Shown: positions 1-20,707 of the stretch, in pieces
Layout: each line of letters opens with the position of its first letter
Numbering within the stretch: position 1 is the stretch's first letter
DNA from: an uncultured Burkholderiales bacterium
GTDB taxonomy: Bacteria; Pseudomonadota; Gammaproteobacteria; Burkholderiales; Burkholderiaceae_C
Assembly (NCBI GenBank): GCA_903894995.1
Contig: CAITSG010000545.1
Location: forward strand, 1-52,569
Length of the DNA stretch: 52,569 bases
Direction: 5' to 3'
Notes under the pieces: model-generated
Told to the model about the DNA's origin: nothing
Databases searched by the model: none
Seen by the model: the letters and a program-made list of their open reading frames with translations, nothing else
Position numbers and translations under genes: made by a program

Positions 1-178
1 ATGGGTCGTGGTCTGCGAGGCTTATCGCGACGAGGGCGTCGCTCCTACAGGGGAATGCCTGCATTTGTAGGAGCCCCGCCCTCGGGGCGATGGGTGGTGG
101 TCTTCGAGGCTTATCGCGACGAGGGCGTCGCTCCTACAGGGGAATGCCTGCATTTGTAGGAGCCCCGCCCACGGGGCG
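1..178. repeat. Two tandem REPIN-like units, 89-bp period
   Basis: Copies at 1-89 and 90-178 are nearly identical, and a third copy starts at 179 but decays after about 20 bases. Each unit holds two REP-like hairpins facing each other. On the minus strand is GTAGGAGC followed by stem GACG/CGTC (loop CCCT). After an 18-base spacer, GTAGGAGC is followed on the plus strand by stem CCCG/CGGG (same loop). The two stems differ but both pair, so the structure looks selected. The head resembles the GTAGGAGC/GTGGGAGC head of Pseudomonas REPs, which are mobilised by RAYT transposases. No RAYT gene is in the window. Confidence 0.8.
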
Positions 179-239
179 ATGGGTCGTGGTCTGCGAGCCA
201 TATCGCTGCGGCGCGCATCCAAACAAGAAAGGACGCTTT

Positions 240-4383: not shown

Positions 4384-4416
4384 CACTAACTCCGTTTTTG
4401 TTGAGGTCTGAGCAGC

Positions 4417-5521: not shown

Positions 5522-5640
5522 GGGGAAATGCTCCGGTTCGGTAAACCGGGCATTTTCTCATGACTTCGACCTTGTGCCTGTCACAAGTTCTTGAGGGTCT
5601 GGGCAGGCCAGGTGTCAAGTTTTTTGGGACTTGATTTTTT

Positions 5641-6171
5641 TTAAAAGAGTCTGCCGTAAGAAAACATCAAACCAGCAGTTCCCAACACTTTCATTTGTAC
5701 GGAATCGTGCGCATTCAATTTGTAGCCCAATGCAGGAATCACTGCAGGCGAGAATCCATTTCGGTTCAGCGGAACTTTGTTTTGGTAAGGTGCGACATAA
5801 CCGTACATCAAGCCTGCCGTCAATTTGACAAAAAGGTCTTGAACGCCAAAGACATTGTTGATTTGACGGCCGCCATAAAGGTAGACCGTGGGCTGTCCAA
5901 AGGAGTTGCTGAAAAAACTCACGCCGCAAAATCGATCACCTGGCAATTGTTCATCCATTGCAAACAGAAGCACATTTTTATGCTCCGGGCTTCGACTCCA
6001 ATGGAGGGTATAAGGTGAAAAAGTGAATTCACCCCGATGGGTTGGCTCGGGTGCACCTTGCACACTCAGGAAAGAGGGGCAATGTGTTTCTGATGCAATG
6101 GCTTGACTTGTGATGGAGAAAAAAATGGTTGAAGATATTAAAAGAAAACGGTTTTTTAATTTATTTTTCAT
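5641..6171 (-). CDS. Secreted protein of unknown function, possible small outer-membrane beta-barrel
   Basis: I do not recognise the family with certainty. This 176-residue protein has a clear Sec signal peptide (basic MKNKLKNR, hydrophobic core, cleavage near SQAIASETH). Two cysteines in the mature part (THCPSF and DRFCGV) could form a disulfide. It has alternating strand-like segments and a C-terminal aromatic residue (YGRLF), as in outer-membrane barrels. The order of blocks (FSNSFGQP, the PAVIPALGYK segment, then a final strand) loosely recalls the lipid A palmitoyltransferase PagP, but this is inference. It is AT-rich compared with its neighbours. It sits 33 bp downstream of the polymerase gene as the last gene of the exopolysaccharide run, so an envelope role fits. 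Confidence 0.6.
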   Translation of the reverse strand: MKNKLKNRFLLISSTIFFSITSQAIASETHCPSFLSVQGAPEPTHRGEFTFSPYTLHWSRSPEHKNVLLFAMDEQLPGDRFCGVSFFSNSFGQPTVYLYGGRQINNVFGVQDLFVKLTAGLMYGYVAPYQNKVPLNRNGFSPAVIPALGYKLNAHDSVQMKVLGTAGLMFSYGRLF

Positions 6172-6204
6172 TTGGGTCCCTGATTTTTTTGAATGAATTT
6201 ATTT

Positions 6205-7533
6205 TTATATTTTGAGTCCCTCCGTTTCATGAAATAAGTAGCGAACTGCCATGCCAGCGGCAATGGCAAAAAAACCACTCTCGACCACATTGGCCGTGAT
6301 CCCATAAACCAGAGTCGCCAGCAAAAGACAATAGGCTACGGCTTCAACAGGGTCTCGCCACGGATTGAGTCTGAGCGACCTCAGCAACAATAGTAAAAAA
6401 CCAGGCAGCGCTACCCAACCAAAAATAACAAACCAATAAACAAATATATTGTCTGCTGCATTGAATCGATTAAATTCGAAATAAGTTTGAGGCGTACCGA
6501 TGCCGCCCAATCCGCGACCCCAAAGTAAATTGCCTTGGTTTTCCAGTAATTTCCAAGCGTTTGGCCACATGTCATTCAGGCGGTCCCAAAACGAAAACGT
6601 CAAATTGGCCAATTCTTGATCTCTGATGTAAAAATTCACATCCATGAACAAGGGGGTCATGGGTAAAAGCAAAGCCACTAAACCCAGTGCCAAAGGCCAC
6701 CATCGAATGGCGGAGGACGGTATCTTTTGACCCAATATGACCACGGGCGACAATAATGCAAACATGTTGTAAGCGCCTTTGCTGGTGGTCATGTAAATGG
6801 TCAAAAATGTGATACTCCAAATTAAAAGTCGAAGCCAGACAGAGCGTGTTCCGAGCACCACAATGACGCCTAACAACAAGGCCTGCAGGGCGGCATCAAA
6901 TGAGGCCCTTGAAAATCCTGCCAAGCGTTTACCCCCGCCTATGCTTTCCCATTCGCGTGAGCTGACGACATCAAGGTCACCCACCGAGTAACCAAATCCT
7001 TCCCAAGGATAGTCAATCCAGTAGTTCAAAATAACACCAGTGACCACCACAAACCAAAGCCAAACAGACGTTTTGAAAACAAGATGCCAGTGTCTGAAAA
7101 TAATTTCAGAACAAGATAATCCAAACCAAAATGGCAGCAAGGTGTAAATGCCAAAAAGAACCTGATACACCGGTGTATGAAAAAAACCAACCAAAATAGA
7201 ATATGAAATGACCAACAGCGTCATGGCTCGGAGTGGTTGCAAACCTTGGCGTGATTCCCACACCACCACAGCCAAGGTGGATGCAAGCATCAAGACTTGT
7301 GGAAAGTAAATGATGGGCGTCAGCCCAACAAGTCCAGCGGCCCACCTGAACGGCCCGGTGATGGCGGCGGTTGCGCAATAACTCAACAGCGAGAGCAACG
7401 CGAGGGCCTGAACCCCATCGTTCACCGACCAACTGTGCAAGTGGATGTTTTGAACGGGCAAGGCCAAGGCCGTGTGTTTCATCCCAGGGTCAAGCCTGGC
7501 TTGGCGAGCAGGCATGCGGTCAGCCGAGGGCAT
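6205..7533 (-). CDS. O-antigen ligase/polymerase-like membrane protein (Wzy type)
   Basis: This protein of about 442 residues has roughly 10-12 hydrophobic helices and a larger polar loop in the second half (about residues 300-385, DVNFYIRDQELANLTFSFWDR to the FNRFNAADN segment), the layout of Wzy polymerases and WaaL ligases. Wzy joins undecaprenyl-linked repeat units on the periplasmic face of the inner membrane. Its position directly after the flippase gene favours polymerase. The start is uncertain: ATG 7533 lies 3 bases after the flippase stop, but ATG 7515 and ATG 7482 (MKHTALALPV) are also possible and none has a strong ribosome-binding site. This family varies greatly in sequence, so the call rests on topology and context. 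Confidence 0.8.
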   Translation of the reverse strand: MPSADRMPARQARLDPGMKHTALALPVQNIHLHSWSVNDGVQALALLSLLSYCATAAITGPFRWAAGLVGLTPIIYFPQVLMLASTLAVVVWESRQGLQPLRAMTLLVISYSILVGFFHTPVYQVLFGIYTLLPFWFGLSCSEIIFRHWHLVFKTSVWLWFVVVTGVILNYWIDYPWEGFGYSVGDLDVVSSREWESIGGGKRLAGFSRASFDAALQALLLGVIVVLGTRSVWLRLLIWSITFLTIYMTTSKGAYNMFALLSPVVILGQKIPSSAIRWWPLALGLVALLLPMTPLFMDVNFYIRDQELANLTFSFWDRLNDMWPNAWKLLENQGNLLWGRGLGGIGTPQTYFEFNRFNAADNIFVYWFVIFGWVALPGFLLLLLRSLRLNPWRDPVEAVAYCLLLATLVYGITANVVESGFFAIAAGMAVRYLFHETEGLKI

Positions 7534-7536
7534 GTC

Positions 7537-8808
7537 TCAGTTGCGATTTTTGGACAGCAGACCGCTGCGATGGGCCAGCAAACAGGTCATGAATGCTTCG
7601 CAAATGACCCAGGCCCACAAGGCCGATTCAGTGTTGACGGTATTGAGTGCCAATACAAAAACGCTGGCTTGAAGCGCAGCACCGGGCAACACCCTTTTGG
7701 CCAGCTGTTTTTCTCTGCCTGAGGCCACCCACCACCACGCGCTGAGCATGGTATTGGCCACGCTAAAGGGCAACCAAAATGACAAAATTTTTGCCCAATC
7801 AGCGTGCAGGGCGGTCGCCTCATTGAACAAGAGAGTCAAACCCCATTCGGCAAAAATATGCGCATTCAATGCACCCAACAATGCCAGTAAAAAAAACACC
7901 AGAGTCCATCTGTGCAATCTCAGGGGCTGAAAGATTTGTTCTTGTCGATGCCAAGCTTGAACCCACCGTGGTTGCGCGGCTTGAATCAAAGGAGAAAACA
8001 TACTGGCTGCGGCGCGTATTGTTTTTTCTATCGCGGCGTACATGCCCACCACTTCTTTTGAATACACCGTACCCATCAAAAAAACGGTGCTGTTGGCCAA
8101 AGCCGTTAACGTGTAATCGGTGATGGCCAAGTGGCGGCTTTTTCGTGCGACATCACAGATGCCTGCCCAATGGGGTCTGGACCATGCCAAGCAGGGAAGG
8201 GCCAAAATGGTGGGCAAGGCCATGAGGCCTGACAAGAAGGTGGCGCTGCTTTGCAGTGCAGCGGCCCACAGCAGGTCTTGGGGCCCATCCACGAGCATAA
8301 AAATGCCGCAAGTTGCCACGAAACGACCGGCTAGACCAAAAATAAGGGTGTTGTGCATGATTTGCAAACCCTGAAACAACCATGTGGGGAACACGGCAGA
8401 GCCAACCACGGTCATGAAGCACCAGGCAAACAGGGGCCACTGGGCATGCCATGAAGTGATCAAGGCAGTGCAGGTCAGCATCACCAAGGCGCTTGCAAAA
8501 AGCAAAAGCCATTTCAGGGCTGTGACATGAACCACCAACGCACCAGCAGCCTGTCTGTTTTCTGTTTTGCGTTGAGGGTCCAGTTTGGCAAGTTCTTTCG
8601 AGGCATGTGTGTTCATGCCCGCATCCACCAACAAAACAAAATAAAAATTGACAGCGGCGCTCCAGGCGAGCCAACCAAATGACTCTGCCCCTAAAGACCG
8701 AACCAAAAAAGGCAGTGTCAGCAATGGAATGATGTAGTTGGCCAGCTGAAGGGTATACAAAGCATAGGCATTGCGCAGCAAGGTGGAGGGCATGGGCAAT
8801 GTCCTCAT
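7537..8808 (-). CDS. Polysaccharide flippase (Wzx/PST family)
   Basis: This 423-residue membrane protein has about 12 predicted helices and the N-terminal pattern of Wzx/RfbX proteins (LQLANYIIPLLTLPFLVRSLG, then FGWLAWSAAVNFYFVLLVDAG). Flippases of this group move lipid-linked oligosaccharide units across the inner membrane to the polymerase. Start ATG 8808 overlaps the stop of the chain-length gene in an ATGA arrangement, which suggests translational coupling. ATG 8793 is an alternative. It lies between the chain-length determinant and the polymerase, the expected context. Confidence 0.9.
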   Translation of the reverse strand: MRTLPMPSTLLRNAYALYTLQLANYIIPLLTLPFLVRSLGAESFGWLAWSAAVNFYFVLLVDAGMNTHASKELAKLDPQRKTENRQAAGALVVHVTALKWLLLFASALVMLTCTALITSWHAQWPLFAWCFMTVVGSAVFPTWLFQGLQIMHNTLIFGLAGRFVATCGIFMLVDGPQDLLWAAALQSSATFLSGLMALPTILALPCLAWSRPHWAGICDVARKSRHLAITDYTLTALANSTVFLMGTVYSKEVVGMYAAIEKTIRAAASMFSPLIQAAQPRWVQAWHRQEQIFQPLRLHRWTLVFFLLALLGALNAHIFAEWGLTLLFNEATALHADWAKILSFWLPFSVANTMLSAWWWVASGREKQLAKRVLPGAALQASVFVLALNTVNTESALWAWVICEAFMTCLLAHRSGLLSKNRN

Positions 8809-10067
8809 TGGGGGCGCTTCAAAGGGTTTTTGAACAATTCATTTTTAAGAATGACGAATTGGTCGGCAAATTTGGAGCTCGCTGTTCGGCGTTGTCGAAC
8901 GTAGGCGCGAGCCCAAATGAACATGATCGTCAGCATGGTGGAGCCCACCCCGGAAAGGATGACGTTGACTTTGATGCGTGGCCGCGATTTGTTCTGGGGG
9001 CTGATGGCGATGTCGAGGATCTGAAACAGTGAAAAATCCCTGGTTTCATCCATCTTGCCCAACTCGGTGTATTGCCCCAGAATGGTCACAATATTTTCCC
9101 AATATTCGACATCGCGCTTGCGTTGACTGTGCTCCATCAAGGCATCGGGCGCCTTGGAAAGAGGGACAAACGCGCCTTGGCTGTTGGCTTTTGACGCTGA
9201 GCCTGGTATTTCACCGGTGGATTCTTGGACTTTTTGTTTCAGGTTGCCGAGTTCACTGCGCAACAGTCGGACGTCGGGGTTGTCGTCAGTGGCATAACTG
9301 AGCAAGGTTCTCAGTTGGACTTCCTTGTTGGCAATTTGACTTCGTAAATCTCTTGCGGTGCTCAAAATGGCTTCATCCTGGCCGCGAAGACGCGTGAAGC
9401 CTGTGCGCTTTTCGGTTCTTCGCAGTTGTTCATCCGCTTCGTTGAGGCTTTGTCGGGCTTTGCTCAGTGCGTTGTTGAAAAAGTCACTTCGCCTGCCACC
9501 CTCTTTTTTGGCCAGATCACTGGAAAAGGTTTGAAGTTCCTGGACGTAGGCGTTGGCCAGTTGTGCTGCGCGAATCGGGTCAGAGTCTTCAACCGAAATC
9601 TCCACAATGCCATCTTTGCCGGAATTGATGTCGGTGCGAGACTCGAGCAATTGCCGGGCCGTGTCCATGTCCTTGGCATCGTAGTGTTTGAGCAAGTCAT
9701 GGTTTTGAATCACGCCATCGAGGATGGTTCGACTGCGCAAAATGCCCACAAAAAGATCGGTTGGGTTTTTCAGGTTGAGCGCTGAATTGCCCAAGGCACT
9801 CTCACCGCCCATGGCAATCAGGCCGCGACTGATGGTGTTTTGGTTGTATTGAGGCGGTAAAACCCGGGTCGATGCTTTGAAATACGGGGTCGAAAAGATC
9901 CCATGCAAAAGAACGAGTACCGAGACCACCAAAGGCACCCCTATCACCCACCATTTCGCTTGCACCAAAGGCAAGAGCACAGGCATGAGACTGTAAGTGT
10001 CCGAGCTTGCAAAGGATGATCTCGATGAGATATCTCTGTGCTTGGGCAGGGGGCGGCTGGGTTTCAT
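8805..10067 (-). CDS. Polysaccharide co-polymerase / chain-length determinant (Wzz/GumC-like), no kinase domain
   Basis: This 420-residue protein has an N-terminal membrane helix (about 39-60), a long periplasmic part with coiled-coil stretches (about 215-300, rich in E, K, Q and R around LNEADEQLRRTEKR) and a second helix near 370-395. This is the polysaccharide co-polymerase layout that sets chain length and contacts the outer-membrane exporter. The cytoplasmic tail after helix 2 is short and has no Walker motifs or tyrosine cluster, so the BY-kinase found fused in Wzc/EpsB-type proteins is absent; none is elsewhere in the locus. ATG 10067 directly follows the exporter stop (TAAATG). Confidence 0.9.
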   Translation of the reverse strand: MKPSRPLPKHRDISSRSSFASSDTYSLMPVLLPLVQAKWWVIGVPLVVSVLVLLHGIFSTPYFKASTRVLPPQYNQNTISRGLIAMGGESALGNSALNLKNPTDLFVGILRSRTILDGVIQNHDLLKHYDAKDMDTARQLLESRTDINSGKDGIVEISVEDSDPIRAAQLANAYVQELQTFSSDLAKKEGGRRSDFFNNALSKARQSLNEADEQLRRTEKRTGFTRLRGQDEAILSTARDLRSQIANKEVQLRTLLSYATDDNPDVRLLRSELGNLKQKVQESTGEIPGSASKANSQGAFVPLSKAPDALMEHSQRKRDVEYWENIVTILGQYTELGKMDETRDFSLFQILDIAISPQNKSRPRIKVNVILSGVGSTMLTIMFIWARAYVRQRRTASSKFADQFVILKNELFKNPLKRPQ

Positions 10068-12434
10068 TTACAGCCCTTTGACAATGCGTATGCCTGCAAT
10101 GCCCATGCCCAGTTGGTAGACGATTTGTGAGATGTCCTTGACGCGCCGAATCCAGCTGACTGCTTCGGTGTTTTCTTCGACCCAGATCGTGTCACCCGGG
10201 GCAATGTCTTCAGCCCCGAGCTGATCTGCAGCAACCAGGGTGCCATCTGGACGAATCACGATCGCGGTCGTGCTTCTGGCCGAGCTTCGACGACCTCCGG
10301 CCATTTGGATGTAGTCTTCGGCGTCTCTGTTTTTTTGCCAAAGGAAGGAACGCTCCGCCATGACGGAGCCCATGACTTCCACAGTTTCAGGAACGGCCGG
10401 AATGTAAAAACTGTCGTTGTTTTCAAGCCGAATTTTGGGCAACTGATCCGGATGTCGCGTTTGGGTGTTGAGCTCCAAAATCATCCGACCTTCGGGTTTG
10501 AGTTTGCGCAGGTTATCCAAGAAGGACTGCACCGCATTTTTTTCTGCCGAAACGGTTTCGGCTTCACCTGTTGCGACCGTTTCACGGCTGCGTTCAATCA
10601 GGAATTTGGCGAAATCACGCTCCATGGCGTTGAGGGCATCATCCGTGCGGCGTTGTTGCTGCTGCCTGACCGAATCTCGAAACAATTGAGCGCCGTAAAG
10701 ATAACCCAGGCGCGTGACGCCGCCTGCTTTTTCCAAGAGCGATGACAGAGTGTCTCCCGCTTGGACGGTGTACATGCCAGGTCTGCGAACTTCACCTTCG
10801 ATTTTGACCACACGCGTGCTTTGTTCGATGGGGCCTCGAAAGTTGTTGCGTGAGAAAACGGTGATGGTGTCACCGGGTTGCAGCACCAAATTGTGTTGAG
10901 GGTCTCGGTTAAAGACGACCTTGCCCAGTTCAAAGGGTATCAAGGTCATTTGAAGTGAAGGGTTCAAAACCCTTTCAATGACTGCATATTCCCAATTGAT
11001 TTCAGGAAATCGGGGTTCAATTTTGATGTTGGCGGGATCTGTTAAAAAAGATGCAATCTTGTTTTGACTGTTCTTTTCAATCCAGTAGGCGGGTGAAATC
11101 AGCGCGTTCACATCTGGAAGAATGTCCGAGATGCGCAAGCCCTCTTTCCATGCATACCGCAAAGGCAGGGCCACTTGTCCTTTGAGGGTCACGGCATTGT
11201 TGAATTGTGGTGAGACAGGCACCAGCACCACCAGATCACCATCGCGCAAAACGGTTTGCATGGCCTCTTTACCAAAGTCCAACTCCTCAATCAAACGGCT
11301 GGCCTTTGGCGTCGGGGTCTTTTTGTCTGCAGGTTTGGCAATGCGTTCGAGTTTGATGCGCAAACCATCCGCTGTTGATGTTGTTCCCCCGCTGATGCTC
11401 AACAACTGAGCCAGCGTCATCCCCGCTTTGTATTGGTAGATGGCCGAATTGCGCACGCTGCCTGCAATCGCCACTTGTCCCTGCATGGGGGGGATGTGGA
11501 TGACGTCTTCGTTTTGCAGGCGCATGTCGGCACTGCGGTTGCCGTTGAGCAAAAAATCATACAAATCAATTTCGGCAATTTTTTGATTGCCACGTCGCAG
11601 CTCAATGTTTCGCAGGTTGCCGTTGGTTGCAGGTCCTCCGGTGATGAACAGCGCACTGATGAGCGAGGACAGTGAATTGACTTGGTAGGTCCCGGGTTTG
11701 CGTGCAAATCCGGTCACGTAAAGGCTGATGCTGCGCAAGCTGCCCATGGTCACAGACAATTCAAAGCTTTTGTAAACCCGCGCCATCGCTTGATTTAAGA
11801 CGGGTTGCAGTTCTTTGTAAGTCAGACCAGACAACTGAATGCTGCCCACTTTGGGAATGAACACGCTGCCCCTGCGGTCAACAGTGACGGCGTATTCCAG
11901 TTCAACCGAGCCCCAAGCTCGAACGATGATGTCATCGCCAGGACCGATCACAAAGTCAGCGGGGACATTCACCTGGTCGCCGATGTTGAACGAGGCGTTT
12001 GGGCCTTGAAAAAGATGGTCTGCAAAGACAGGCAGGGCAATGCCCAGACTTTGTTGAACGAGTATTTCAAAATCGGACATGTCCGATTTCAGGGGTGTTG
12101 TTTTTTCAGGGGGGCGTGATTGGGTGGGTGATTCGACCACCACCCTGGTGGACAGGTTGTTGGCACGCAAACTCGGATAAAGACTGTTGGGCCTTTCTTG
12201 CCGAAGCGTGGTGTTGTCCTGTGGGGCTTCAGTGCTTGTATTGGCGTTTTGTGGCTTGGGGCTGCCATAAAACTCAGTGATGGAAGGGGCCTTGTATTCT
12301 TGGGCGAATGACTCCGGCACACACAGCAAGGTGTATGAGAAAATGCAGACAAGGACGGAGTGCATCCATTGCTTGTAGCCCACATTTTCAGCACATGATG
12401 GGGCAGCCATAGGGTTTAAAAAAAACGGTGTCAT
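10068..12434 (-). CDS. Wza-like outer-membrane polysaccharide export protein with several SLBB domains
   Basis: The protein is 788 residues from ATG 12434. This start is chosen because it overlaps the preceding stop (ATGA), while the longer frame from 12512 adds no recognisable sequence. A signal peptide follows an N-terminal extension (hydrophobic core in MHSVLVCIFSYTLLCVPESFAQ, about 24-45). The Poly_export domain begins near FVIGPGDDIIVRAWGSVE. Repeated SLBB-type modules follow, seen as recurring GxVxxPGxY and LxxAGG patterns (ARKPGTYQV, then LLSISGG, VRRPGMYTV with LLEKAGG, and YIQMAGG). It is far longer than E. coli Wza (about 380). No lipobox cysteine is obvious at the signal cleavage site. 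It forms the exit channel for the polymer. Confidence 0.93.
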   Translation of the reverse strand: MTPFFLNPMAAPSCAENVGYKQWMHSVLVCIFSYTLLCVPESFAQEYKAPSITEFYGSPKPQNANTSTEAPQDNTTLRQERPNSLYPSLRANNLSTRVVVESPTQSRPPEKTTPLKSDMSDFEILVQQSLGIALPVFADHLFQGPNASFNIGDQVNVPADFVIGPGDDIIVRAWGSVELEYAVTVDRRGSVFIPKVGSIQLSGLTYKELQPVLNQAMARVYKSFELSVTMGSLRSISLYVTGFARKPGTYQVNSLSSLISALFITGGPATNGNLRNIELRRGNQKIAEIDLYDFLLNGNRSADMRLQNEDVIHIPPMQGQVAIAGSVRNSAIYQYKAGMTLAQLLSISGGTTSTADGLRIKLERIAKPADKKTPTPKASRLIEELDFGKEAMQTVLRDGDLVVLVPVSPQFNNAVTLKGQVALPLRYAWKEGLRISDILPDVNALISPAYWIEKNSQNKIASFLTDPANIKIEPRFPEINWEYAVIERVLNPSLQMTLIPFELGKVVFNRDPQHNLVLQPGDTITVFSRNNFRGPIEQSTRVVKIEGEVRRPGMYTVQAGDTLSSLLEKAGGVTRLGYLYGAQLFRDSVRQQQQRRTDDALNAMERDFAKFLIERSRETVATGEAETVSAEKNAVQSFLDNLRKLKPEGRMILELNTQTRHPDQLPKIRLENNDSFYIPAVPETVEVMGSVMAERSFLWQKNRDAEDYIQMAGGRRSSARSTTAIVIRPDGTLVAADQLGAEDIAPGDTIWVEENTEAVSWIRRVKDISQIVYQLGMGIAGIRIVKGL

Positions 12435-14104
12435 GGGGTCACCCCGATGGGATGAATGTGAATGGATTGTTCTTGGGGCCAAGGCTTGTAGGTGACGATG
12501 GATTGGCCGCAAGAGATGCTGGTGAAGTAGTGGACGTGTTCAAAAACCGCATCAATGATGGACAGTCCATAACCCGATTGGGCCAGCAAGTCGGGTTCAG
12601 GAAATGTTCGTGATTCCCGTTCGGCTGATGTGAACGCCTTGCCTTGGTAATGCCATTCAAGCCACAGTCCGTTGAGGTCCAGGATGACCAGCAAATGAAT
12701 CGGTTTGGCGTGGGACTTTTCTGCCAGGCACGCATGTCCGATGACATTGCTTGCTGTCTCTGACAGTCCCAATGTCATGTGCTGTTTCCAGTGCACGCTG
12801 CTTGCTTCTTCAGTCTGGATCAGACAGGGAGAAACGATGTGATCAACCCAAGCGCGTATGTCCGGTAAAACTCGCATTTCGGCTTTGAACTGCTTTGAAT
12901 GGACTGCTCTGGGGGGTGGATTCGGGGCGGTGTAGTGCAAGGCAACGCATGAACGGTCGTCAGCGACCCCTGTGCTTGCACAGGGTTGCTTGACCAGCGC
13001 ATTGACCAATGGGGCTTCTTGCCCCATTGGATAAAGGGCCATGATCTGCGCTATTTTTTGGTAAGCCTCTTGGGCCAAGGGCAGTCCCCAAGCGTCAAGA
13101 ATGCCGTCTGAGACCAGCAGCAAGCGGTCATCTTGCAACACGGGCACCAAGCAACTGGTGATGGTTTCTGTCGCAATGCCCAAGGGCATCATGTTGCCCG
13201 CAATGAACAAAATATGCCCATCACAGGCTCTTTGCAGCAACAGATGAGGTGCGCCGCAATCGACCCATTCGAGCAGGCCTTGCTGGGTATCTATGTCAGC
13301 CAAGCTCAAAGTCAAAAGACTTTCACTTTCTTTGAGCATGGGCGTGACTTTTTCCCTGAGCTGTTTGAGCACCTGCCTGGGGCTGGCCATGTATTGCAGG
13401 GGCCTGAGTTGGGAGAGGCTGATTTTGATTCCAGCAGAAACAATGGCCGCACCCAAACCCTTGCCCATCACGTCACCGCTGACCAGACAAACACCGCGCT
13501 GCGTTGCGACCACATCGACCAAGTCCCCACTGGCACCGTCTTGTGCTTGTGATGCGGCGTGAATTTGTAGCCCGGGAATGCTTTCTTCGGGCAAAGAAAA
13601 AAGAAGGTATTTTTGGGCCAATGTGGCCAGTTTTTGCTCGTGTAGACGGCGTGTTTGGAGTTCTTCGTTTTGCTGCTCCAACAAGATTTGAGCGGCCTTG
13701 AGTGCTTCTCGCGTTTGCCGAATGTCCTGCAATCTTTTGAGCGTGGCAAAGAAAGTTTGTTTTAAAAAGGGTTTGATCAGGATTTGATCGACGCCGAGAT
13801 TGACGGCACTTGAAAACTCTTCTTGTTTTCCGTGTGCGGTCATCAAGACGCAAGCGGCTTGGGGGTGCAGGCGGTGCGCGGCCTCGACCAAACTCAGACC
13901 ACCTCCATCTGGATGGTGGCTGCCTAAATTCAGGTCTACAAAAAAAATATCCCAGTGCTTGCCGTTCAGGGCCTCAAGGGCCATGTTGGGGGTGTTCACG
14001 GCCAGACAGTGTGCTTGGCCCTTCAGCCATGTTTTGACAAGATGACGCATGACGGCGTCATCGTCAACCATCAGCACATTCACGGGTGATAACGTTTCTG
14101 TCAC
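12431..14104 (-). CDS. Response regulator with PP2C phosphatase and RsbW-like kinase domains (HsbR-type partner-switch regulator)
   Basis: This 557-residue protein has three domains. The receiver (1-125) has acidic residues D14-D16, phosphoacceptor D57 in FFVDLNL, T89 and K111. A helical linker (about 125-165) probably forms a coiled coil. The SpoIIE/RsbU-type PP2C phosphatase (about 175-390) has D194, D211 in SGDVMGKG, D333 in SDGI and D383. The HATPase kinase of RsbW type (about 405-540) has N-box E449 and N453 in LSETASNVIGHA and a G-box at GYGLSII (511-517). The order REC-PP2C-HATPase is that of Pseudomonas HsbR. It should set the phosphorylation state of a STAS partner; one is encoded at 18116-18457. 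It starts at GTG 14104 and is the first gene of the exporter run. Confidence 0.88.
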   Translation of the reverse strand: MTETLSPVNVLMVDDDAVMRHLVKTWLKGQAHCLAVNTPNMALEALNGKHWDIFFVDLNLGSHHPDGGGLSLVEAAHRLHPQAACVLMTAHGKQEEFSSAVNLGVDQILIKPFLKQTFFATLKRLQDIRQTREALKAAQILLEQQNEELQTRRLHEQKLATLAQKYLLFSLPEESIPGLQIHAASQAQDGASGDLVDVVATQRGVCLVSGDVMGKGLGAAIVSAGIKISLSQLRPLQYMASPRQVLKQLREKVTPMLKESESLLTLSLADIDTQQGLLEWVDCGAPHLLLQRACDGHILFIAGNMMPLGIATETITSCLVPVLQDDRLLLVSDGILDAWGLPLAQEAYQKIAQIMALYPMGQEAPLVNALVKQPCASTGVADDRSCVALHYTAPNPPPRAVHSKQFKAEMRVLPDIRAWVDHIVSPCLIQTEEASSVHWKQHMTLGLSETASNVIGHACLAEKSHAKPIHLLVILDLNGLWLEWHYQGKAFTSAERESRTFPEPDLLAQSGYGLSIIDAVFEHVHYFTSISCGQSIVTYKPWPQEQSIHIHPIGVTP

Positions 14105-14176
14105 TTTGATAGGCTGTTGAATTTAGATATGATGAATTTATTCTTTATTATCCACATTTAAACCAAAAGATTTGAA
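14105..14176. promoter_or_regulatory. AT-rich divergent intergenic region, likely two promoters
   Basis: These 72 bp separate the start of the HsbR-like gene (minus) from a glycosyltransferase gene (plus). The stretch is strongly AT-rich compared with its surroundings, with TTGAAT at about 14114 on the plus strand and several TAT-rich hexamers. No pair is good enough to fix a start site, so the promoter role is inferred from the divergent arrangement. Confidence 0.4.
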
Positions 14177-15310
14177 ATGATCGGAGAAATGTTACCTGCA
14201 GAGAAGTCCATTTGGATCAATGCGCGCTTTTTGACGCGACCTGTGACGGGGGTCGAGCGCGTGGCTCGCGAAGTCATTTCGGCTTTGGTACGCCATCATC
14301 TGGACTCACAGGGATGCTGGCGGGGTTCGGGGCAGGTGCTTCGTTTTGGCTTGATTGCCCCATGTACGCCAGAAGTTCTGCCCAACCCTTGGCCAGAACT
14401 GCGTTTGTGGCAAACCGGTGTCTTTCAGGGGCATGCTTGGGAGCAGTGGGATTTGCCACGCTGCACTGCGGGTCATCTTTTGCTCAATTTTTGCAACACC
14501 GCCCCACTGTTTAAGCGGCGTCAATGGACGTTTTTGCACGACGCCCAGACATTTGCTATTCCGCAAAATTTCACGTTTGCGCTGCGTTTTTGGTATCGCT
14601 TGATGTTTCGGATGGTGGCCCGTTTGGGATTGGGGGTGTTGACCAATTCAGCGTTTTCAGCGAACGAGTTGGTCAAATTTCTGGGTGTGGACCGATCTCG
14701 ATTGACCGTGGCCCATCTGGGGGCTGATCACATGGCGCATGTGACGCCGGATTTGACCCCAAGACTCAAAACTTTGATGGACTCCTTGGCCGATCAACCC
14801 TTTGTGTTGGCAGTATCGAGCGACAACCCGAATAAGAATTTTTTGAGCGTCATCAAGGCCTTGGAGTTGATGGGGCCGAATGCGCCAGCCTGCGTCATTG
14901 TGGGGAGAGAAAATAACCGGGTTTTCTCACGCAGCACACTCAGTACCGAAAAAATTCACCATTTGGGATACGTCAGTGATGCGGAATTGGTGACCCTTTA
15001 CCGACACGCCACTGCCATGGCCTATCCCTCTTTTTATGAAGGTTTTGGTTTGCCACCCTTGGAGGCCATGTGGCATGGCTGCCCAGTCGTGGTCTCTCAC
15101 ACATCGGCATTGCCCGAGATCAATGCAGATTCGGCGCTTTACTGTGATCCGGATGACCCTGCCTCCTTGGCAAAGGCCCTGAATTCCTTGGTCAACGACC
15201 CTGTTATTCGTCGGCAAATGAGTCAACGCGGCCAAGACAGGGCGAGGACTTTTGTCTGGCGGCAGACAGCAAGAGTCATTTTGGATGCTGTCACCGCACC
15301 ATGCCGATGA
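14177..15310 (+). CDS. GT4-type glycosyltransferase on the opposite strand of the EPS locus
   Basis: This 377-residue protein has a GT-B fold: an N-terminal acceptor half with TGVERVAREV, then a C-terminal nucleotide-sugar half with LAVSSDNPNKNF, HHLGYVSDAELVTLYRHA and the EX7E-type motif YEGFGLPPLEAM (about residue 295). This family transfers a sugar from a nucleotide donor to the growing lipid-linked unit at the cytosolic membrane face. The donor and acceptor are not predictable. It has no membrane helix. ATG 14177 is used; ATG 14189 has GGAGA just before it, but the spacing is too short. It runs against the rest of the locus, convergent with the next gene (10 bp between stops). Confidence 0.88.
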   Translation: MIGEMLPAEKSIWINARFLTRPVTGVERVAREVISALVRHHLDSQGCWRGSGQVLRFGLIAPCTPEVLPNPWPELRLWQTGVFQGHAWEQWDLPRCTAGHLLLNFCNTAPLFKRRQWTFLHDAQTFAIPQNFTFALRFWYRLMFRMVARLGLGVLTNSAFSANELVKFLGVDRSRLTVAHLGADHMAHVTPDLTPRLKTLMDSLADQPFVLAVSSDNPNKNFLSVIKALELMGPNAPACVIVGRENNRVFSRSTLSTEKIHHLGYVSDAELVTLYRHATAMAYPSFYEGFGLPPLEAMWHGCPVVVSHTSALPEINADSALYCDPDDPASLAKALNSLVNDPVIRRQMSQRGQDRARTFVWRQTARVILDAVTAPCR

Positions 15311-15320
15311 CCCTTTGAAG

Positions 15321-16541
15321 TCATGTGTTTCCGTTTGAGATTTCAAAGGCTGGTGTTTGGCCTGCCTTGAGTGCCTCATTAACGGCCCGTGCAAAGCTGG
15401 CTTTGAAGGCGGGTACTGAAAAAATTTGGGCGTGCTGACAAATTTTCTCGGCATCAAGCTCTGTGGCAATCCGTTCAAATTGCCAAACTGCTTCAGACAA
15501 ACTCTCTGCCGTTTGTTCATGAAAAAAAACACCTGTGGGGTAAAGACCTTGTTGTGGTGTGCCAGGCCAAGGAATCACAGTTTCCAGTGCGCCCCCCCGA
15601 CCGTATGCAATCACCGGCGTGCCACAAGCCTGCGCTTCGACGGGAACGATGCCAAAGTCTTCTTCGGAGGGGAAAATGAAAGCCCGCGCCTTGGCCAAAT
15701 AAGCCCGAACTTGCCCTGGCGGTAAAAAGCCTGTGAAGGTGACATTGGGTCCTGCTTTGCTTCGAATTTTGGCCATTTCAGGACCATCACCGATGAGAAT
15801 CAACCGTTTTTCAGGCATGCTGGTGAATGCTTGTGCGACCAGATCAATGCGTTTGAAGGGCACAAATCGGCCTGCACAAACATAAAAATTTTCGCGTTCA
15901 GTCTCTAAACAGAACAAGTCGGTGTCCACGGGCGGTGAGATCACGAGGGGGGTGCGACGGTAGTATTTGGCGATGCGTTTGGCCACAAATTTGGAGTTGG
16001 CGATGAACTGGTCAACGCCATTGGCACTTTGAATGTCCCAGCCGCGTATGCGGTGAAGTTGCCAGCGGGCAAACCAGGATTTCAGGCCCCGCTCCAGATT
16101 CATTTCGCGCAGGTATTCGTGGTAATGGTCCCATGCATAACGCATGGGGGAATGACAGTAACAAACATGGGTTTGATTGGGGCCTGTCAACACCCCTTTG
16201 GCAACGCTGTAGTGGCTGGAGATGATCAGGTCATAACTGCTGAGGTCGAGTTGCTCAATGGCCAGAGGCATCAGGGGCAACATTTTTCGGTAATGGTGGC
16301 GTGCACCTGGAATTTTTTGCAGAAAACTGGTGATGGGTGTTTTGCCGCGCAAAAAATGCCGCTGATCATCTTGCACAAAATCGATCAACGAAAAGACATC
16401 GGCATCAGGGTAAAGGTCAATGATGTGCTCGAGCACACGCTCTGCCCCACCGTAGATCACCAACCAGTCATGAACGATGGCCACTTTAAGTGGATGTGCA
16501 TCCCGCAAGTTGGATTCATGTGCGGTGAGCATGCAAGACAT
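15321..16541 (-). CDS. GT4-type glycosyltransferase
   Basis: This 406-residue GT-B protein begins KVAIVHDWLVIYGGAERVLE, the opening of the mannosyltransferase WbaZ-like group of GT4. It continues with SSHYSVAKGVLTG, CHSPMRYAWDHYHEYL and, in the donor half, GRFVPFKRIDLV, LIGDGPEM and FPSEEDFGIVPVEAQACGTPVIAYG, which carries the EX7E pair. It is expected to add a sugar, perhaps mannose, to the repeat unit; substrate assignment is inference. The start ATG 16541 overlaps the end of the preceding glycosyltransferase gene by 26 bp; ATG 16532 is an alternative. Confidence 0.9.
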   Translation of the reverse strand: MSCMLTAHESNLRDAHPLKVAIVHDWLVIYGGAERVLEHIIDLYPDADVFSLIDFVQDDQRHFLRGKTPITSFLQKIPGARHHYRKMLPLMPLAIEQLDLSSYDLIISSHYSVAKGVLTGPNQTHVCYCHSPMRYAWDHYHEYLREMNLERGLKSWFARWQLHRIRGWDIQSANGVDQFIANSKFVAKRIAKYYRRTPLVISPPVDTDLFCLETERENFYVCAGRFVPFKRIDLVAQAFTSMPEKRLILIGDGPEMAKIRSKAGPNVTFTGFLPPGQVRAYLAKARAFIFPSEEDFGIVPVEAQACGTPVIAYGRGGALETVIPWPGTPQQGLYPTGVFFHEQTAESLSEAVWQFERIATELDAEKICQHAQIFSVPAFKASFARAVNEALKAGQTPAFEISNGNT

Positions 16542-17730
16542 CCTTGAATAAATCGGTGAATTGCCTCAGGCGGCGTTGTGTGGTGAAGGCTTGTGCTTTT
16601 TGGCGAGCATGCAGACCCATGTCGTGCCAGCGACCGTGTTCTTGATCCAACTCAAAGATGACGCGGGCCAAGTCGTGTGCATTGCCTGGCTCGAAGAAGG
16701 CACCACTGACGCCCTCTTCAATCAATTCGACCCCGCCACCATGTCGACTGGCAACGCAGGCTTTGGCGGCAGATGCGGCCTCCAAAATGACGTTGCCAAG
16801 TGCTTCGTAAGAGTTGCTTGGAAAGACCAGTGCATCCACGTCTGGCCACAAGGTGTCAGGCTCAATGAATCCACGCCATTGAAGATCGAGCATAGGGTAT
16901 TGCATTTGCCAGCGTTCAATATCTTGGCTTGGTCCTTTGCCCGCCAATACCCATTGAACAGGGAAGCCTTTCAAGCGCAAGATCTCTGCGGCTGCCAGCA
17001 GCACATCCAGACCCTTGGCTTGGTCGAGTCTGCCCAAAAATCCCAATCTGAGTGGGTCGATGCGGCTTCGAGTAGCGGCTGGGCGCAGGTTTTTTTGTGG
17101 ACCCAGTGCGTTGTAGATGACTTGACCCCGGGCTTGTCTGAACAAGCCGTGTTCACGGTGGAGTTGCAAAATGAATTGACTGACCCCCACCACGGCGGAG
17201 ACCGAGGTGGTGTGGTTGGCGCGTGGTGCCGTCAACCAACGGCATTCGGTGCACCTGCGCTCATGCAGGCCACAGACGCGCCCGTTTTTGTAAAGCACGG
17301 TTCGAGGGCATAAAAGTGAAAAATCATGCAACACATGCACGATGGGCAGATTCAATGTTTGCAACCCCTGCCAAACGCCGGTCGAAAACCCCTGCAGGTT
17401 GTGCGTGTTGATGATGTCCAGATTTTTTTCGCGTGCCCATTGCCTAACCTGTTGAACCATCCAGGGATTGGACGTGTCCAACGCATGCCAAACCAGTCTT
17501 CGAAGTAAAGAGGGTGGTTTTTGGCCACGCTCATAGGGCCAGTAGATATTTTGAAGGGGGACACGATGAACGTGTGGTTCATCGGTCATGGGCGCTTGCG
17601 GTGCCTGCAGTGTCAAAACAAAGACATCCAAGCCTTGGTCGCGCAAACCGTCCACCAATTGTTGTGCCATGATCTCTGCGCCACCGATGGCCGTCGGCGG
17701 ATAAAGAGCAGAGATCACGCCAATGCGCAC
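16516..17730 (-). CDS. GT4-type glycosyltransferase
   Basis: This 404-residue GT-B protein has an N-terminal glycine-rich loop (YPPTAIGGAEIMAQQLVDGL) and a cysteine-containing segment with four Cys (LLCPRTVLYKNGRVCGLHERRCTECRW) typical of one GT4 subgroup. Its donor half has GFLGRLDQAKGLDVLL, VLAGKGPS and FPSNSYEALGNVILEAASA with the EX7E glutamates. GTG 17730 follows the Hpt-like gene stop by 2 bases, so it belongs to the same transcript. It probably adds one sugar of the exopolysaccharide unit in the cytosol; which sugar is unknown. Confidence 0.9.
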   Translation of the reverse strand: MRIGVISALYPPTAIGGAEIMAQQLVDGLRDQGLDVFVLTLQAPQAPMTDEPHVHRVPLQNIYWPYERGQKPPSLLRRLVWHALDTSNPWMVQQVRQWAREKNLDIINTHNLQGFSTGVWQGLQTLNLPIVHVLHDFSLLCPRTVLYKNGRVCGLHERRCTECRWLTAPRANHTTSVSAVVGVSQFILQLHREHGLFRQARGQVIYNALGPQKNLRPAATRSRIDPLRLGFLGRLDQAKGLDVLLAAAEILRLKGFPVQWVLAGKGPSQDIERWQMQYPMLDLQWRGFIEPDTLWPDVDALVFPSNSYEALGNVILEAASAAKACVASRHGGGVELIEEGVSGAFFEPGNAHDLARVIFELDQEHGRWHDMGLHARQKAQAFTTQRRLRQFTDLFKDVLHAHRT

Positions 17731-17732
17731 AG

Positions 17733-18119
17733 TCAGGTGGCCACTGTTCGTTGGTGTCGCGTCAGAGAATCAATGGTGTTCATCCAAATTTTCTGGACCA
17801 TTGGGGTCAAGCGTTTGCACGCCAATTCGTCCGACATGACAACAGCCGATTCAAAAGCCTCAAACACTTTGGCTTGTTGATCAAAACCCAGAATTTTTAA
17901 ACTCGGCAGTTGCGAGTGAGTCAGTCGCCTCAGGCTGTTGAAGTCATTTGAATTGGCTCGCATGTTCACGTCAAAGACGCGTTCACGCAAGGCAGTTTCA
18001 AGCAATGCAATGATTTCGCCCATGAGGACTTCATCGTGATCCAATCTTGACAGACCCAAGGTCGGCTGCCAGATCATGGTGTCAGCCACGTTGGCGCTGG
18101 CGTTGAATGAAAGAATCAT
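17733..18119 (-). CDS. Small alpha-helical protein resembling a degenerate Hpt domain
   Basis: This 128-residue all-helical protein (131 if started at ATG 18128) has no assured family. The pattern around RLTHSQLPSLKILGF (histidine at 68, glycine 10 residues later, followed by a helix ending FEAFESA) fits the spacing of Hpt domains, whose signature is HxxKGxxxxxG. Here the Lys-Gly pair is replaced by Leu-Pro. The His is kept, so phosphotransfer is possible but not certain. ATG 18119 is preferred because it forms ATGA with the STAS stop, as at other junctions here. The neighbour is a STAS gene, and the locus also encodes an HsbR-like receiver protein. In Pseudomonas HptB feeds HsbR and HsbA. 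Confidence 0.6.
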   Translation of the reverse strand: MILSFNASANVADTMIWQPTLGLSRLDHDEVLMGEIIALLETALRERVFDVNMRANSNDFNSLRRLTHSQLPSLKILGFDQQAKVFEAFESAVVMSDELACKRLTPMVQKIWMNTIDSLTRHQRTVAT

Positions 18120-18457
18120 TTTTCCCATGATTTCAAGGCCTCAAATTTGTCGTTGTAAATGTCAAAGACGCGGTGCATGCGTACCACCTCTAAAAGCATG
18201 ACAACTGGCTTTTGAAGGTTGCAGAGCTTGATTTGTCCTGCTTGTCCTTCCATTTCACGCAGCATCCAGACCAATGCACCCAAGCCTGAACTGTCGAGGA
18301 ATTCGATGTGTTCAAGATTCATCAAAAGACAAGGGCTGTCTTTGATGCGTTCGCGCAACATGTCTTTAAATACAGCCACGTTGGATGCATCCAGCGACTT
18401 GATTCTGGGGGTCAGTTCATTGATGCCATCGTGCAGGACTTGGCTTAATTCGATCAT
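18116..18457 (-). CDS. STAS-domain anti-sigma factor antagonist (HsbA/SpoIIAA-like)
   Basis: This 113-residue single STAS domain has the phosphorylation loop FLDSSGLGALVWML. By alignment with SpoIIAA, Ser57 (second Ser of DSSG) is the phosphoacceptor. In partner switching, the unphosphorylated STAS protein binds a target or anti-sigma factor; an RsbW-type kinase phosphorylates it and a PP2C phosphatase restores it. Both activities are predicted in one protein at 12431-14104. The gene starts one base after the stop of the fusion gene upstream (TGA-C-ATG) and overlaps the Hpt-like gene, so it is translated with the exopolysaccharide enzymes. Confidence 0.92.
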   Translation of the reverse strand: MIELSQVLHDGINELTPRIKSLDASNVAVFKDMLRERIKDSPCLLMNLEHIEFLDSSGLGALVWMLREMEGQAGQIKLCNLQKPVVMLLEVVRMHRVFDIYNDKFEALKSWEK

Positions 18458-18458
18458 G

Positions 18459-19958
18459 TCAGGTCTTTATGGCTTGAAGTTTGACGGGGTTGGAAGGGGT
18501 AAGGATTTTGTTTAAATACCGCCAGATCAATCCCCATTGGTAGGTCCATTCATGCGATCGGGTTTCCTGATAACGCTCAAGAACCATGCTTTGAAGAGGA
18601 TCGTTTTCATGGATACCCACGACCCATTCTTCTTGCAGCAATCCACATTTTTTTTGAGCCAACCACCGTTGGTGTTCCAGCGGCAACTGTGACCATTGGT
18701 CAAGGCTTCTGGGTCGAGCCCCGATAAGGTGGCACCTGCCTATCAAGACCCCTGGTAAATTGGGCAGTACAAAACCCACCAAGTGTTTCCAGCCAAGGGT
18801 GCAAGGGTGTGCTCCTAGCCAGCTGATGAATGCCACCGTAGGTATGGCCATGTGGCTGATGTCTGGCCCAACCAACTGAATGGTCTTTGGGCCTGCTCGA
18901 CCGGTGGCCGATGCGGTGGCCGCCAACAGAAAAATGGGCGCGAGCAGGAACACCACCACGAGCGCCAATGTGCGTTCAGTGAAGGTGTTGACGACGCTGC
19001 GCCATTTCAAAGTGGCATTACCGTGCGCCAAAATGAGCGCATCGAAGATGGTCATGCGCGCTTGGTGTTTGCTGCTCCAGATCACGCCCCTGAACACCAC
19101 GCATTCATGCAAGTCCAGTGAATCACCAATCCAGCTATCAGGTCCAATTTGGGTTTCAGACATGCGGCAACTGTGACCAATGTAGGTGCGCCCACTGAGG
19201 GCCACAGCCGGTCCGATTTGGCAATTTTTTTCGATTTCAACATGGGGCCCGGCGTAGAACGGGGCGATGATTTCAGCAGTTGGGTGAATGATGACGTTTC
19301 TGGACAAGAAAATGCCAGGCTCTACTTCGCTGGCATCCAAAACCACTGGAAATGACCTGTTGATCATGTGCGGTATGGCGTTCAATATGGCATGGCCATC
19401 CATCAGGCTGAGTGCTTGTGCGGGCAGTCGTGAATGGCAAGTTGCCGCTAAAGCTTGGGACCAAGCCTGCCAAGGATATTCTGCAATCATGTGTTGGCAA
19501 AGTTGGCGATCCAGCCAAGCCCAGCACCAAAGATCGTTGAAATCGGTTGTGTCTTTTTCTTGTGGCTCCAACAGTGTGCCAGGCAGTGCCATCTGTGTTG
19601 AAGGCCACCGCATCAAGGAGCATGTGGTGGCCAACAAAAAAGGCCCCTCTGGGGGTGCCAGGTCCACCAAGCGTGCAAAGGCTTGGTGCGGCCCAGACAA
19701 GGAGTGCCATGTGATGTGGCATCCCCACTGAAGTCCCGACTGCAGTTGTGCTTGGCATTGCTCGGGCTCATCCCAACCTATGCAGGTGATGTGCGTGATG
19801 CCCGCCTCGACCAAAGCTTGCACAGCAAAGACGAGTGGTGTTTTGCCCAGTAAGGGGGTCAGGTGCAGCGGCGTTTCCTGGGCCAGTGGTGTTCGCTCTG
19901 TGTCATCTGCAGGGGAACCAGCGATCAATATGGCGCACAGTTTGTGTGCGGCGCTCAT
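18459..19958 (-). CDS. Three-part fusion: nucleotidyltransferase-like, left-handed beta-helix, degenerate sugar-transferase domain
   Basis: The protein has 499 residues. Residues 1-130 start like a sugar nucleotidyltransferase (AILIAG, PLLGKTPLVFAVQALVEAGI), but the usual GxGTRLxPLT loop is not recognisable. About 205-315 holds hexapeptide-type repeats with I/V-G patterns (IGPAVALSGRTYIGHSC, QIGPDSWIGDSL), a left-handed beta-helix. A hydrophobic helix follows at about 329-350. The remainder aligns with polyprenyl-phosphate sugar transferases (LPNLPGVLIGRCHLIGARP against LPQLWSVLKGDMSLVGPRP), but the catalytic Asp-Glu before LPQL is Phe396-Val397, so it is probably inactive. ATG 19958 overlaps the upstream stop (TGATG) and has an AAGGGG site. 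It may act as a scaffold or modifier of the initiating transferase. Confidence 0.75.
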   Translation of the reverse strand: MSAAHKLCAILIAGSPADDTERTPLAQETPLHLTPLLGKTPLVFAVQALVEAGITHITCIGWDEPEQCQAQLQSGLQWGCHITWHSLSGPHQAFARLVDLAPPEGPFLLATTCSLMRWPSTQMALPGTLLEPQEKDTTDFNDLWCWAWLDRQLCQHMIAEYPWQAWSQALAATCHSRLPAQALSLMDGHAILNAIPHMINRSFPVVLDASEVEPGIFLSRNVIIHPTAEIIAPFYAGPHVEIEKNCQIGPAVALSGRTYIGHSCRMSETQIGPDSWIGDSLDLHECVVFRGVIWSSKHQARMTIFDALILAHGNATLKWRSVVNTFTERTLALVVVFLLAPIFLLAATASATGRAGPKTIQLVGPDISHMAIPTVAFISWLGAHPCTLGWKHLVGFVLPNLPGVLIGRCHLIGARPRSLDQWSQLPLEHQRWLAQKKCGLLQEEWVVGIHENDPLQSMVLERYQETRSHEWTYQWGLIWRYLNKILTPSNPVKLQAIKT

Positions 19959-20707
19959 CAATAGGCCCCTTTGCCTTGAATGACCGCAGGAATGGTTTTG
20001 ATCAGCAGCCAAATGTCGATCAAGACGCTTTGGCTGTCCACGTAATGGATGTCCATTTCGACCTGTTTTGCAAAGGGAATGTCGCCACGCCCTTCAACCT
20101 GCCAATAGCAGGTGAGACCAGGTTTCACGTCCAGACGTCGGCGGTCAGCGAGCTTGTATTTCAGGACTTCTTCGGGAATGGGCGGTCTGGGACCCACCAG
20201 TGACATATCCCCCTTCAGAACGGACCACAACTGAGGCAATTCGTCGATGCTTGTTTTTCGCAACCAGCGCCCGATCGGGGTGACGCGTGGATCACCATTG
20301 ATTTTGAAAGTGACACCATCCTTGTGGTGGTTTTGTGAACGTAATTGCTCTTTCAGCGCTTCTGCGTTGCAGACCATGGATCGGAACTTGGGAAAGTCAA
20401 ATTCTCGACCCCATTGGCCCACGCGTTTTTGGATAAAAAAAATGGGACCGCGATCATGAAATCCAATGGCGCATGCCACCATTAATAAAACAGGCAACAA
20501 AACCAAGAGGCCAGCAGACGCTCCTAAAATATCAATAGAACGCTTAAGTATTCTCGCCAGAGCCATCGTGCCGTACCAAGCATTTCGTTTCCACAGGCCA
20601 CGCCAATGAGGCCAACTCCAAGGACCTGCGGCAGAGTAACGGTCTTCAAGGGCCTTGAGTAAATGCTGTCTGTTGGGTGCAACGGTTGATTTCATCGAGC
20701 GATGCAT
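19958..20707 (-). CDS. Polyprenyl-phosphate sugar-1-phosphate transferase (initiating enzyme of the repeat unit)
   Basis: This 249-residue protein is the catalytic-core form of the bacterial sugar transferase family. It has one membrane helix (about 56-82), then GPIFFIQKRVGQWGREFDFPKFRSM, the catalytic dyad in SIDELPQLWSVLKGD, SLVGPRPPIPEEV, KPGLTCYWQVEGRG and the C-terminal end IQGKGAY. It transfers a sugar-1-phosphate from a nucleotide sugar to undecaprenyl phosphate at the inner membrane and so begins each repeat unit. The sugar is unknown. It is the first gene of the minus-strand run; ATG 20695 (MKSTVAPN) is an alternative start. Confidence 0.93.
   Translation of the reverse strand: MHRSMKSTVAPNRQHLLKALEDRYSAAGPWSWPHWRGLWKRNAWYGTMALARILKRSIDILGASAGLLVLLPVLLMVACAIGFHDRGPIFFIQKRVGQWGREFDFPKFRSMVCNAEALKEQLRSQNHHKDGVTFKINGDPRVTPIGRWLRKTSIDELPQLWSVLKGDMSLVGPRPPIPEEVLKYKLADRRRLDVKPGLTCYWQVEGRGDIPFAKQVEMDIHYVDSQSVLIDIWLLIKTIPAVIQGKGAY

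Follow-up and report, generated by a model that had tools for sequence, protein, structure and literature searches.

In Vibrio fischeri, sypF lies within the syp polysaccharide locus. Control of the syp polysaccharide involves SypF (through its histidine phosphotransfer (Hpt) domain), SypE and SypA, and the available text of PMC10120452 and PMC8256260 gives the target of SypA as unknown and the question how SypA and other STAS outputs influence the polysaccharide pathway as open. SypE, with an N-terminal kinase, a central receiver (REC) and a C-terminal phosphatase domain (available text of PMC10120452), and SypA are placed below transcription in the parts available of PMC10120452 and PMC12369376. 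Here we describe a stretch of 52,569 nucleotides (nt) of bacterial DNA (the window) in which three regulators, a REC-PP2C-HATPase protein, a small STAS protein and an Hpt-fold protein, are encoded among the genes of a polysaccharide locus (Table 1). They probably form a phosphorelay-driven partner switch that is built into this locus and acts on polymer synthesis, with the initiation step as the likeliest point of action. The host would be a freshwater bacterium of the genus Limnohabitans, the genus being taken from the match of its contig to locus L002 of genome G066 (Limnohabitans sp. WS1). The window genome (G000; 3.92 Mb, 96.56% complete) is fragmented into 558 contigs.

The REC-PP2C-HATPase protein matches the Pfam models Response_reg (E-value 8.1e-14) and SpoIIE/PP2C (4.6e-24). 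Its match to HATPase_c_2 (1.5e-5, 25.4 bits) is below the cut-off of 27.4 bits, and the same stretch reaches 28.5, above the cut-off, in the genome search. Direct reading of the sequence locates D14, D15, D57, T89 and K111 in the receiver domain, G193-D194, D211, D333-G334 and D382-D383 in the phosphatase domain and E449 and N453 in the N-box of the HATPase domain; all are invariant across the five loci aligned except D14, which is D or E. The STAS protein carries the motif D55-S56-S57-G58, scores above the cut-off of the anti-sigma factor antagonist model (TIGR00377, 54.8 against 53.45 bits) and has SpoIIAA-type proteins as its nearest structures in the PDB. A syp-type relay requires a STAS protein with a serine phosphosite encoded within the polysaccharide locus, and this protein is of that kind. 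Pfam and the direct reading of residues bear out the coordinates, frames, domains and residues that an earlier note on this DNA (the original prediction) had given for the three regulators. Its phosphosite has to be amended in one respect: the DSSG motif stands, while Ser57 as the single site does not, Ser56 being invariant in 10 of 10 loci and Ser57 in nine (L102 has DSAG).

The third regulator has no match in Pfam at an E-value limit of 0.1 or in NCBIfam at 0.001, and its two divergent homologues have no Hpt match in Pfam even at a limit of 10. Its AlphaFold model is helical (predicted local distance difference test (pLDDT) 80), and in a Foldseek comparison of this model with the PDB the first nine matches are histidine phosphotransfer proteins (E-values 0.011 to 0.26). 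The best is 3myf, with a template modelling (TM) score by target of 0.74–0.78, and HptB of Pseudomonas aeruginosa (7c1i) is found at rank 4 (TM 0.61/0.68). As all of these E-values are greater than 0.01, the fold matches count as support and not as proof. In the eight Hpt domains that the profile of this protein detects elsewhere, the acceptor His is the residue aligned with His71, and five aligned homologues, three of them mutually close, share the sequence R-x-x-T-H-x-x-L-P-x-L-K-I-x-G. Judged from these residues and the predicted fold, the protein is most likely a diverged Hpt that retains its acceptor His. It had been described as degenerate, which is right in the sense of diverged and not in the sense of plainly dead, the acceptor His being invariant in five of the five proteins aligned. 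A search with the single sequence, which found the window only among 60 genomes, is superseded by a profile search of 90 genomes of the genus, described below. The profile also matched 7 of 298 other genomes of the family (1.5e-5 to 3.3e-4) and 1 of 368 other genomes of the class (6.7e-7). All eight can be aligned as Hpt domains in which the His coincides with that of the window protein (one alignment is printed incompletely, and in another the His is followed by an insertion of 3 residues). Seven of them sit in open frames of at least 557 amino acids (aa) and four resemble hybrid kinases by eye; the eight were not counted as orthologues.

The genes are tightly packed with their neighbours. 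The stop of the gene for a nucleotidyltransferase-like protein is separated by 1 nt from the STAS ATG, the Hpt gene has an ATG at 18119 that overlaps the stop of STAS (and a further one at 18128), the Hpt-gene stop is followed after 2 nt by the GTG of a glycosyltransferase gene, and the PP2C-gene stop overlaps the ATG of the exporter gene at 12434. Since these junctions are of 1–2 nt or are ATGA-type overlaps, the translational coupling of the STAS and Hpt-like genes to a glycosyltransferase that was originally proposed fits the sequence, as does the placing of the HsbR-like gene at the head of the exporter run. A divergent plus-strand gene (14177–15310) divides the polysaccharide locus into two minus-strand runs. 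A promoter scan gave 8 sites against 5.4 ± 2.2 in shuffled sequences and is not informative; its top-scoring site (14106–14133, plus strand) lies in the divergent gap.

Within Limnohabitans, the full-length PP2C protein is found in 6 of 90 genomes, other PP2C matches among the matches listed being partial and weak. The Hpt protein (profile search), the STAS protein (at E 1e-6) and the nucleotidyltransferase-like protein (at E 1e-10) are likewise each found in 6 of the 90, and the carriers are the identical six genomes, with one polysaccharide locus in each. These four equal counts have to be taken as a single observation, the genes being neighbours in one locus. The original prediction had named the separation of its three regulators in homologous loci as one result that would refute it; the survey did not refute it, as all six Limnohabitans loci carry all three. 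The STAS gene also directly follows the nucleotidyltransferase-like gene in the other five of these loci, as it does in L097 and L098, two of the more distant loci described below. Four of the six carriers are close (PP2C proteins 89–100% identical), and two, G071 and G069, are distant, with PP2C identities of 41% and 35% and STAS identities of 50% and 37%, respectively. The G069 stretch has the PP2C, Hpt and STAS genes directly adjacent to each other, then a second STAS gene, together with a WecG-type glycosyltransferase, a family-2 glycosyltransferase and a Wzc-like protein; Wza, Wzz, Wzx and Wzy of the window were unmatched in the 36 kb taken. In this second STAS gene (L038:6186–6710, minus strand, after the PP2C gene), DSM replaces DSS. 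Distance matrices for the STAS protein, the nucleotidyltransferase-like protein and the initiating sugar transferase (10 loci each) and for the PP2C protein (9 loci) correlate with r between 0.94 and 0.99, values as high being reached in 0 to 3 of 5000 permutations. G064 (L003, near-identical to L002) is outside alignments A1–A5, the survey of STAS serines and the distance matrices, and L004 is outside alignments A4–A5. G141 is absent from the distance sets of the nucleotidyltransferase-like protein and the transferase; tblastn found both genes there in pieces. An order-wide search with the PP2C profile (E 1e-60, 300 genomes, four candidates scored per genome) matched 1 of the 300, the window itself, and is not used as evidence of absence because of the strict cut-off and the small number of candidates scored.

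The linkage extends beyond the genus. In a sample of 299 genomes of the family, with five candidates scored per genome and loci chosen by the gene for the nucleotidyltransferase-like protein alone, this protein was found in 6 of the 298 other genomes, belonging to four other genera. The six loci keep a STAS gene nearby in five cases, a PP2C-HATPase gene in four, an Hpt in five (one below the cut-off, L101, and one by eye only, L102) and an initiating transferase in all six. The linkage holds down to 23–25% identity of the PP2C protein, with the key residues kept. In L097 (7.7e-9) and L098 (2.6e-12) the Hpt is part of a hybrid kinase, whereas it stands alone in L099 (6.1e-10) and L101 (0.0035, below the cut-off); the Hpt-like motif of L102 was recognised by eye, Pfam giving no Hpt match there. 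The order in L097 and L098 is STAS, REC-PAS-PP2C-HATPase and HisKA-HATPase-REC-Hpt, the same set of parts as in SypA, SypE and SypF. The input in L100 consists of a PAS-PP2C-HATPase protein, with a dCache match below the cut-off, and a hybrid kinase, in L102 of a PAS-PP2C-HATPase protein and a hybrid kinase, and in L099 and L101 of a hybrid kinase, a REC protein and an Hpt; in L099 and L102, STAS comes after the genes for the hybrid kinase and the REC protein. Thus the input modules vary between loci, and STAS and the initiation genes are the constant part. The PP2C-HATPase/Hpt/STAS set is a conserved cassette in polysaccharide loci.

In L101, a compact cassette (3586–10777) of STAS, an OmpR-type regulator, a nucleotidyltransferase (4.1e-56), Hpt, REC, a hybrid kinase, the initiating transferase and the nucleotidyltransferase-like protein is flanked by unrelated genes, a dehydrogenase gene and YaaA/QueF. 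No exporter gene was found among the 18 of the 21 listed open reading frames of L101 that were run through Pfam. Two loci encode a glycosyltransferase of the WecG/TagA type joined to a STAS-like domain: in L099 (5972–7156, plus strand) the C-terminal STAS domain is above the cut-off (STAS_2, 3.9e-11), and in L038 (50–955, plus strand) a similar protein has a STAS-like C-terminus below it (0.002). A frame of L097 (4424–6838) considered as an exporter proved in Pfam to be a hybrid kinase with an Hpt. A 186-aa hydrophobic protein is encoded after the Wzc-like gene in L097 (1173–1730) and L098 (13860–14420), and a similar-looking one at L100:241–825; the L097 copy has no Pfam match.

The nucleotidyltransferase-like protein is weakly RmlA-type-like in its N-terminal part. 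The GGxGTR start, a nucleotidyltransferase signature, is absent from all 10 members aligned. A hexapeptide domain of the eIF2B/pyrophosphorylase type forms the middle part; it is below the cut-off in the window protein and above the Hexapep cut-off in the homologues from L036, L038, L097 and L100. There follow a hydrophobic stretch and a tail that keeps LPxLxxxxxGxxxLxGxRPR without the preceding acidic pair; sugar transferases carry an Asp-Glu pair at this point. Comparison with the initiating transferase gave an E-value of 2.1e-4 and a probability of only 45.5%, so the tail is tentatively read as a decayed sugar transferase. The protein is probably a pseudoenzyme and possibly a regulatory subunit. 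The start of its gene is not settled, the open frame overlapping the next gene (19958–20707), and its AlphaFold model is poor (pLDDT 51). When 1501 bases of the gene were searched against plasmids, nothing matched.

The remaining genes of the locus are included in Table 1. The exporter run is closed by a 176-aa protein (5641–6171, minus strand) that is 90–91% identical in L002–L004 and has no match in Pfam or NCBIfam, and a protein with a BrnA-type antitoxin domain (Pfam 2.8e-18) is encoded at the window edge (90–560, plus strand).

Table 1. Genes of the polysaccharide locus in the window, with the evidence for each assignment
Feature	Position	Strand	Evidence or remark
Initiating polyprenyl-phosphate sugar transferase	19958–20707	−	Bac_transf 1.5e-63; TIGR03025 4.4e-83, below its cut-off
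Nucleotidyltransferase-like and hexapeptide protein, probable pseudoenzyme	18459–20012	−	Possible decayed sugar-transferase tail
STAS protein, DSSG (Ser56/Ser57), proposed output	18116–18457	−	113 aa; Pfam STAS 3.6e-13
Hpt-fold protein, His71 (counted from ATG 18128)	17733–18128	−	Alternative ATG 18119; predicted fold, profile
Glycosyltransferase, begins 2 nt past Hpt gene	16516–17730	−	Pfam
Glycosyltransferase	15321–16541	−	Pfam
Glycosyltransferase, divergent from PP2C gene	14177–15310	+	Pfam
REC-PP2C-HATPase protein (HsbR-like order), putative switch kinase/phosphatase, GTG start	12431–14104	−	557 aa; Pfam
Wza-type exporter, ATG overlaps PP2C-gene stop	10068–12434	−	Pfam
Wzz-type chain-length protein	8805–10067	−	Pfam
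Wzx-type flippase (Polysacc_synt)	7537–8808	−	Pfam
Probable Wzy polymerase	6205–7533	−	Wzy_C 0.0022, below cut-off

From the genes, their key residues and their linkage we infer the phosphotransfers, the direction of control and the target of the switch as follows. A sensor kinase would phosphorylate the Hpt protein on His71; none was found among the window genes examined, and it would be encoded elsewhere. The phosphate would pass to Asp57 of the REC-PP2C-HATPase protein, which would then shift between phosphorylating and dephosphorylating STAS at Ser56 or Ser57. One form of STAS would be the output, acting on polymer synthesis post-transcriptionally, its likeliest target being the initiating sugar transferase, the probable pseudoenzyme whose gene ends 1 nt before that of STAS, or both. 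The relay itself is very probable from the domains and residues present. That its STAS output acts at the initiation step is a tentative suggestion, for which there are four clues, none of them decisive. In L101 the initiating transferase and the pseudoenzyme are accompanied by a kinase, REC, Hpt and STAS, and no exporter was seen. STAS lies 1 nt past the nucleotidyltransferase-like gene in the window and directly after it in relatives. STAS-like domains are fused to WecG-type glycosyltransferases in L099 and L038; Anabaena all4160 is also given as a glycosyltransferase with a STAS domain in the available text of PMC8256260. Lastly, neither a stand-alone HATPase anti-sigma kinase (the 7 other PF13581 matches being in frames of at least 423 aa) nor FlgM (PF04316) was found in G000 at E 0.001. 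It is conceivable, if rather doubtful, that one phospho-state of STAS binds the adjacent pseudoenzyme and thereby activates or inactivates the initiating sugar transferase. If this were true, SypA and HmpV of Nostoc punctiforme could bind the same kind of target, and the glycosyltransferase–STAS fusions of the two loci would be a hard-wired form of the STAS–pseudoenzyme contact.

Several observations weigh against a relay that acts at polymer initiation. The presence of the pseudoenzyme in every distant locus follows from its use as the selection criterion. L100 has no STAS gene, its 13.2-kb contig ending about 0.2 kb after the genes for the hybrid kinase and REC; L099 has no PP2C protein, its contig ending beside the nucleotidyltransferase-like gene; and L101 has no PP2C protein in 19.9 kb, which is not explained by a contig end. 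STAS may be near the initiation genes simply because it belongs to their operon. Hpt domains typically have Lys and Gly at His+3 and His+4. The window protein has Leu and Pro in their place and misses the Pfam Hpt model (PF01627), as might be expected if it had kept the fold but lost phosphotransfer and now served in docking or regulation; the invariance of the His in all five homologues (three mutually close), the Hpt fold and the clear Hpt domains in relatives' loci make such a role unlikely. The review PMC8256260, in the text available, describes SypA as starting the transcription of biofilm genes.

A rival to this reading is a sigma-factor switch. The HATPase domain might hold a sigma factor such as RpoS, which unphosphorylated or phosphorylated STAS would free, the locus being either a transcriptional target or the mere home of the switch. 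The REC-PP2C-HATPase order matches that of HsbR and CrsR, whose HATPase domains bind RpoS according to the available text of PMC6482189, and both the TIGR00377 score of the STAS protein and its SpoIIAA-type relatives in the PDB are what a sigma-factor switch would have. However, STAS and the initiation genes remain together in loci whose input modules differ, FlgM is found in only two of the six carrier genomes (and in neither G000 nor three of the five others), and the search of G000 gave no stand-alone HATPase anti-sigma protein, RpoS not having been searched for; we regard a sigma-factor output as somewhat unlikely. STAS could also set a diguanylate cyclase encoded elsewhere, cyclic diguanylate (c-di-GMP) then controlling the polymer, on the model of HsbA in P. 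aeruginosa, whose binding partner is the cyclase HsbD (available text of PMC6482189). The Pfam results for the window proteins and the relatives' loci, to which the search was confined, contain no cyclase, the only exception being a weak match to a sensor domain in L100, and this output seems improbable. It is very improbable that the STAS, Hpt and PP2C genes are mere passengers of a mobile polymer locus with functions in other pathways: the patchiness of the locus in the genus (6 of 90) would suit such a view, and the distance correlations could come from kinship alone, but the linkage down to 23–25% PP2C identity, in four other genera and with the key residues retained, argues for a shared function.

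Among the papers listed for STAS or partner switching together with polysaccharides or glycosyltransferases, and for Limnohabitans exopolysaccharide, with few subscription journals covered, none describes this cassette in its title or abstract opening. With the cassette, the switching of polymer production from within the locus itself is extended to the Limnohabitans family, and it offers candidate STAS targets, a natural version lacking an exporter and natural STAS–glycosyltransferase fusions with which the mode of action of such outputs can be approached.

The relay can be compared with four described systems. P. aeruginosa HptB-HsbR-HsbA has the same Hpt, REC-PP2C-HATPase and STAS parts, and the same domain order in HsbR (PMC6482189, in the text available), whereas the window relay lies inside a polymer locus and has a diverged Hpt motif. 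The original comparison with this system holds for the architecture; FlgM, one of the targets of HsbA, was not found in G000. CrsR-CrsA of Shewanella oneidensis likewise has a response regulator with PP2C and kinase/anti-sigma domains and a STAS protein, and it controls RpoS (available text of PMC6482189). HmpUWV of N. punctiforme, of a hormogonium motility and polysaccharide locus, is also a partner switch tied to polysaccharide with an unknown STAS target; its phosphatase HmpU and kinase HmpW are named separately, and the available text of PMC8256260 mentions neither an Hpt nor a REC part. The V. fischeri syp locus, like the window, encodes REC/PP2C/HATPase and STAS proteins within a polysaccharide locus with an Hpt feeding them. 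The domain order of SypE, kinase-REC-phosphatase, is not that of the window protein, REC-PP2C-HATPase, and the Hpt, which is part of SypF in syp, is a separate small protein in the window, so that both have an Hpt source in the locus. Neither a kinase nor a SypG-like activator was seen among the window proteins examined, and in the window it is the probable pseudoenzyme gene that abuts STAS. By analogy, the window relay would work like syp, and its middle protein is built like HsbR.

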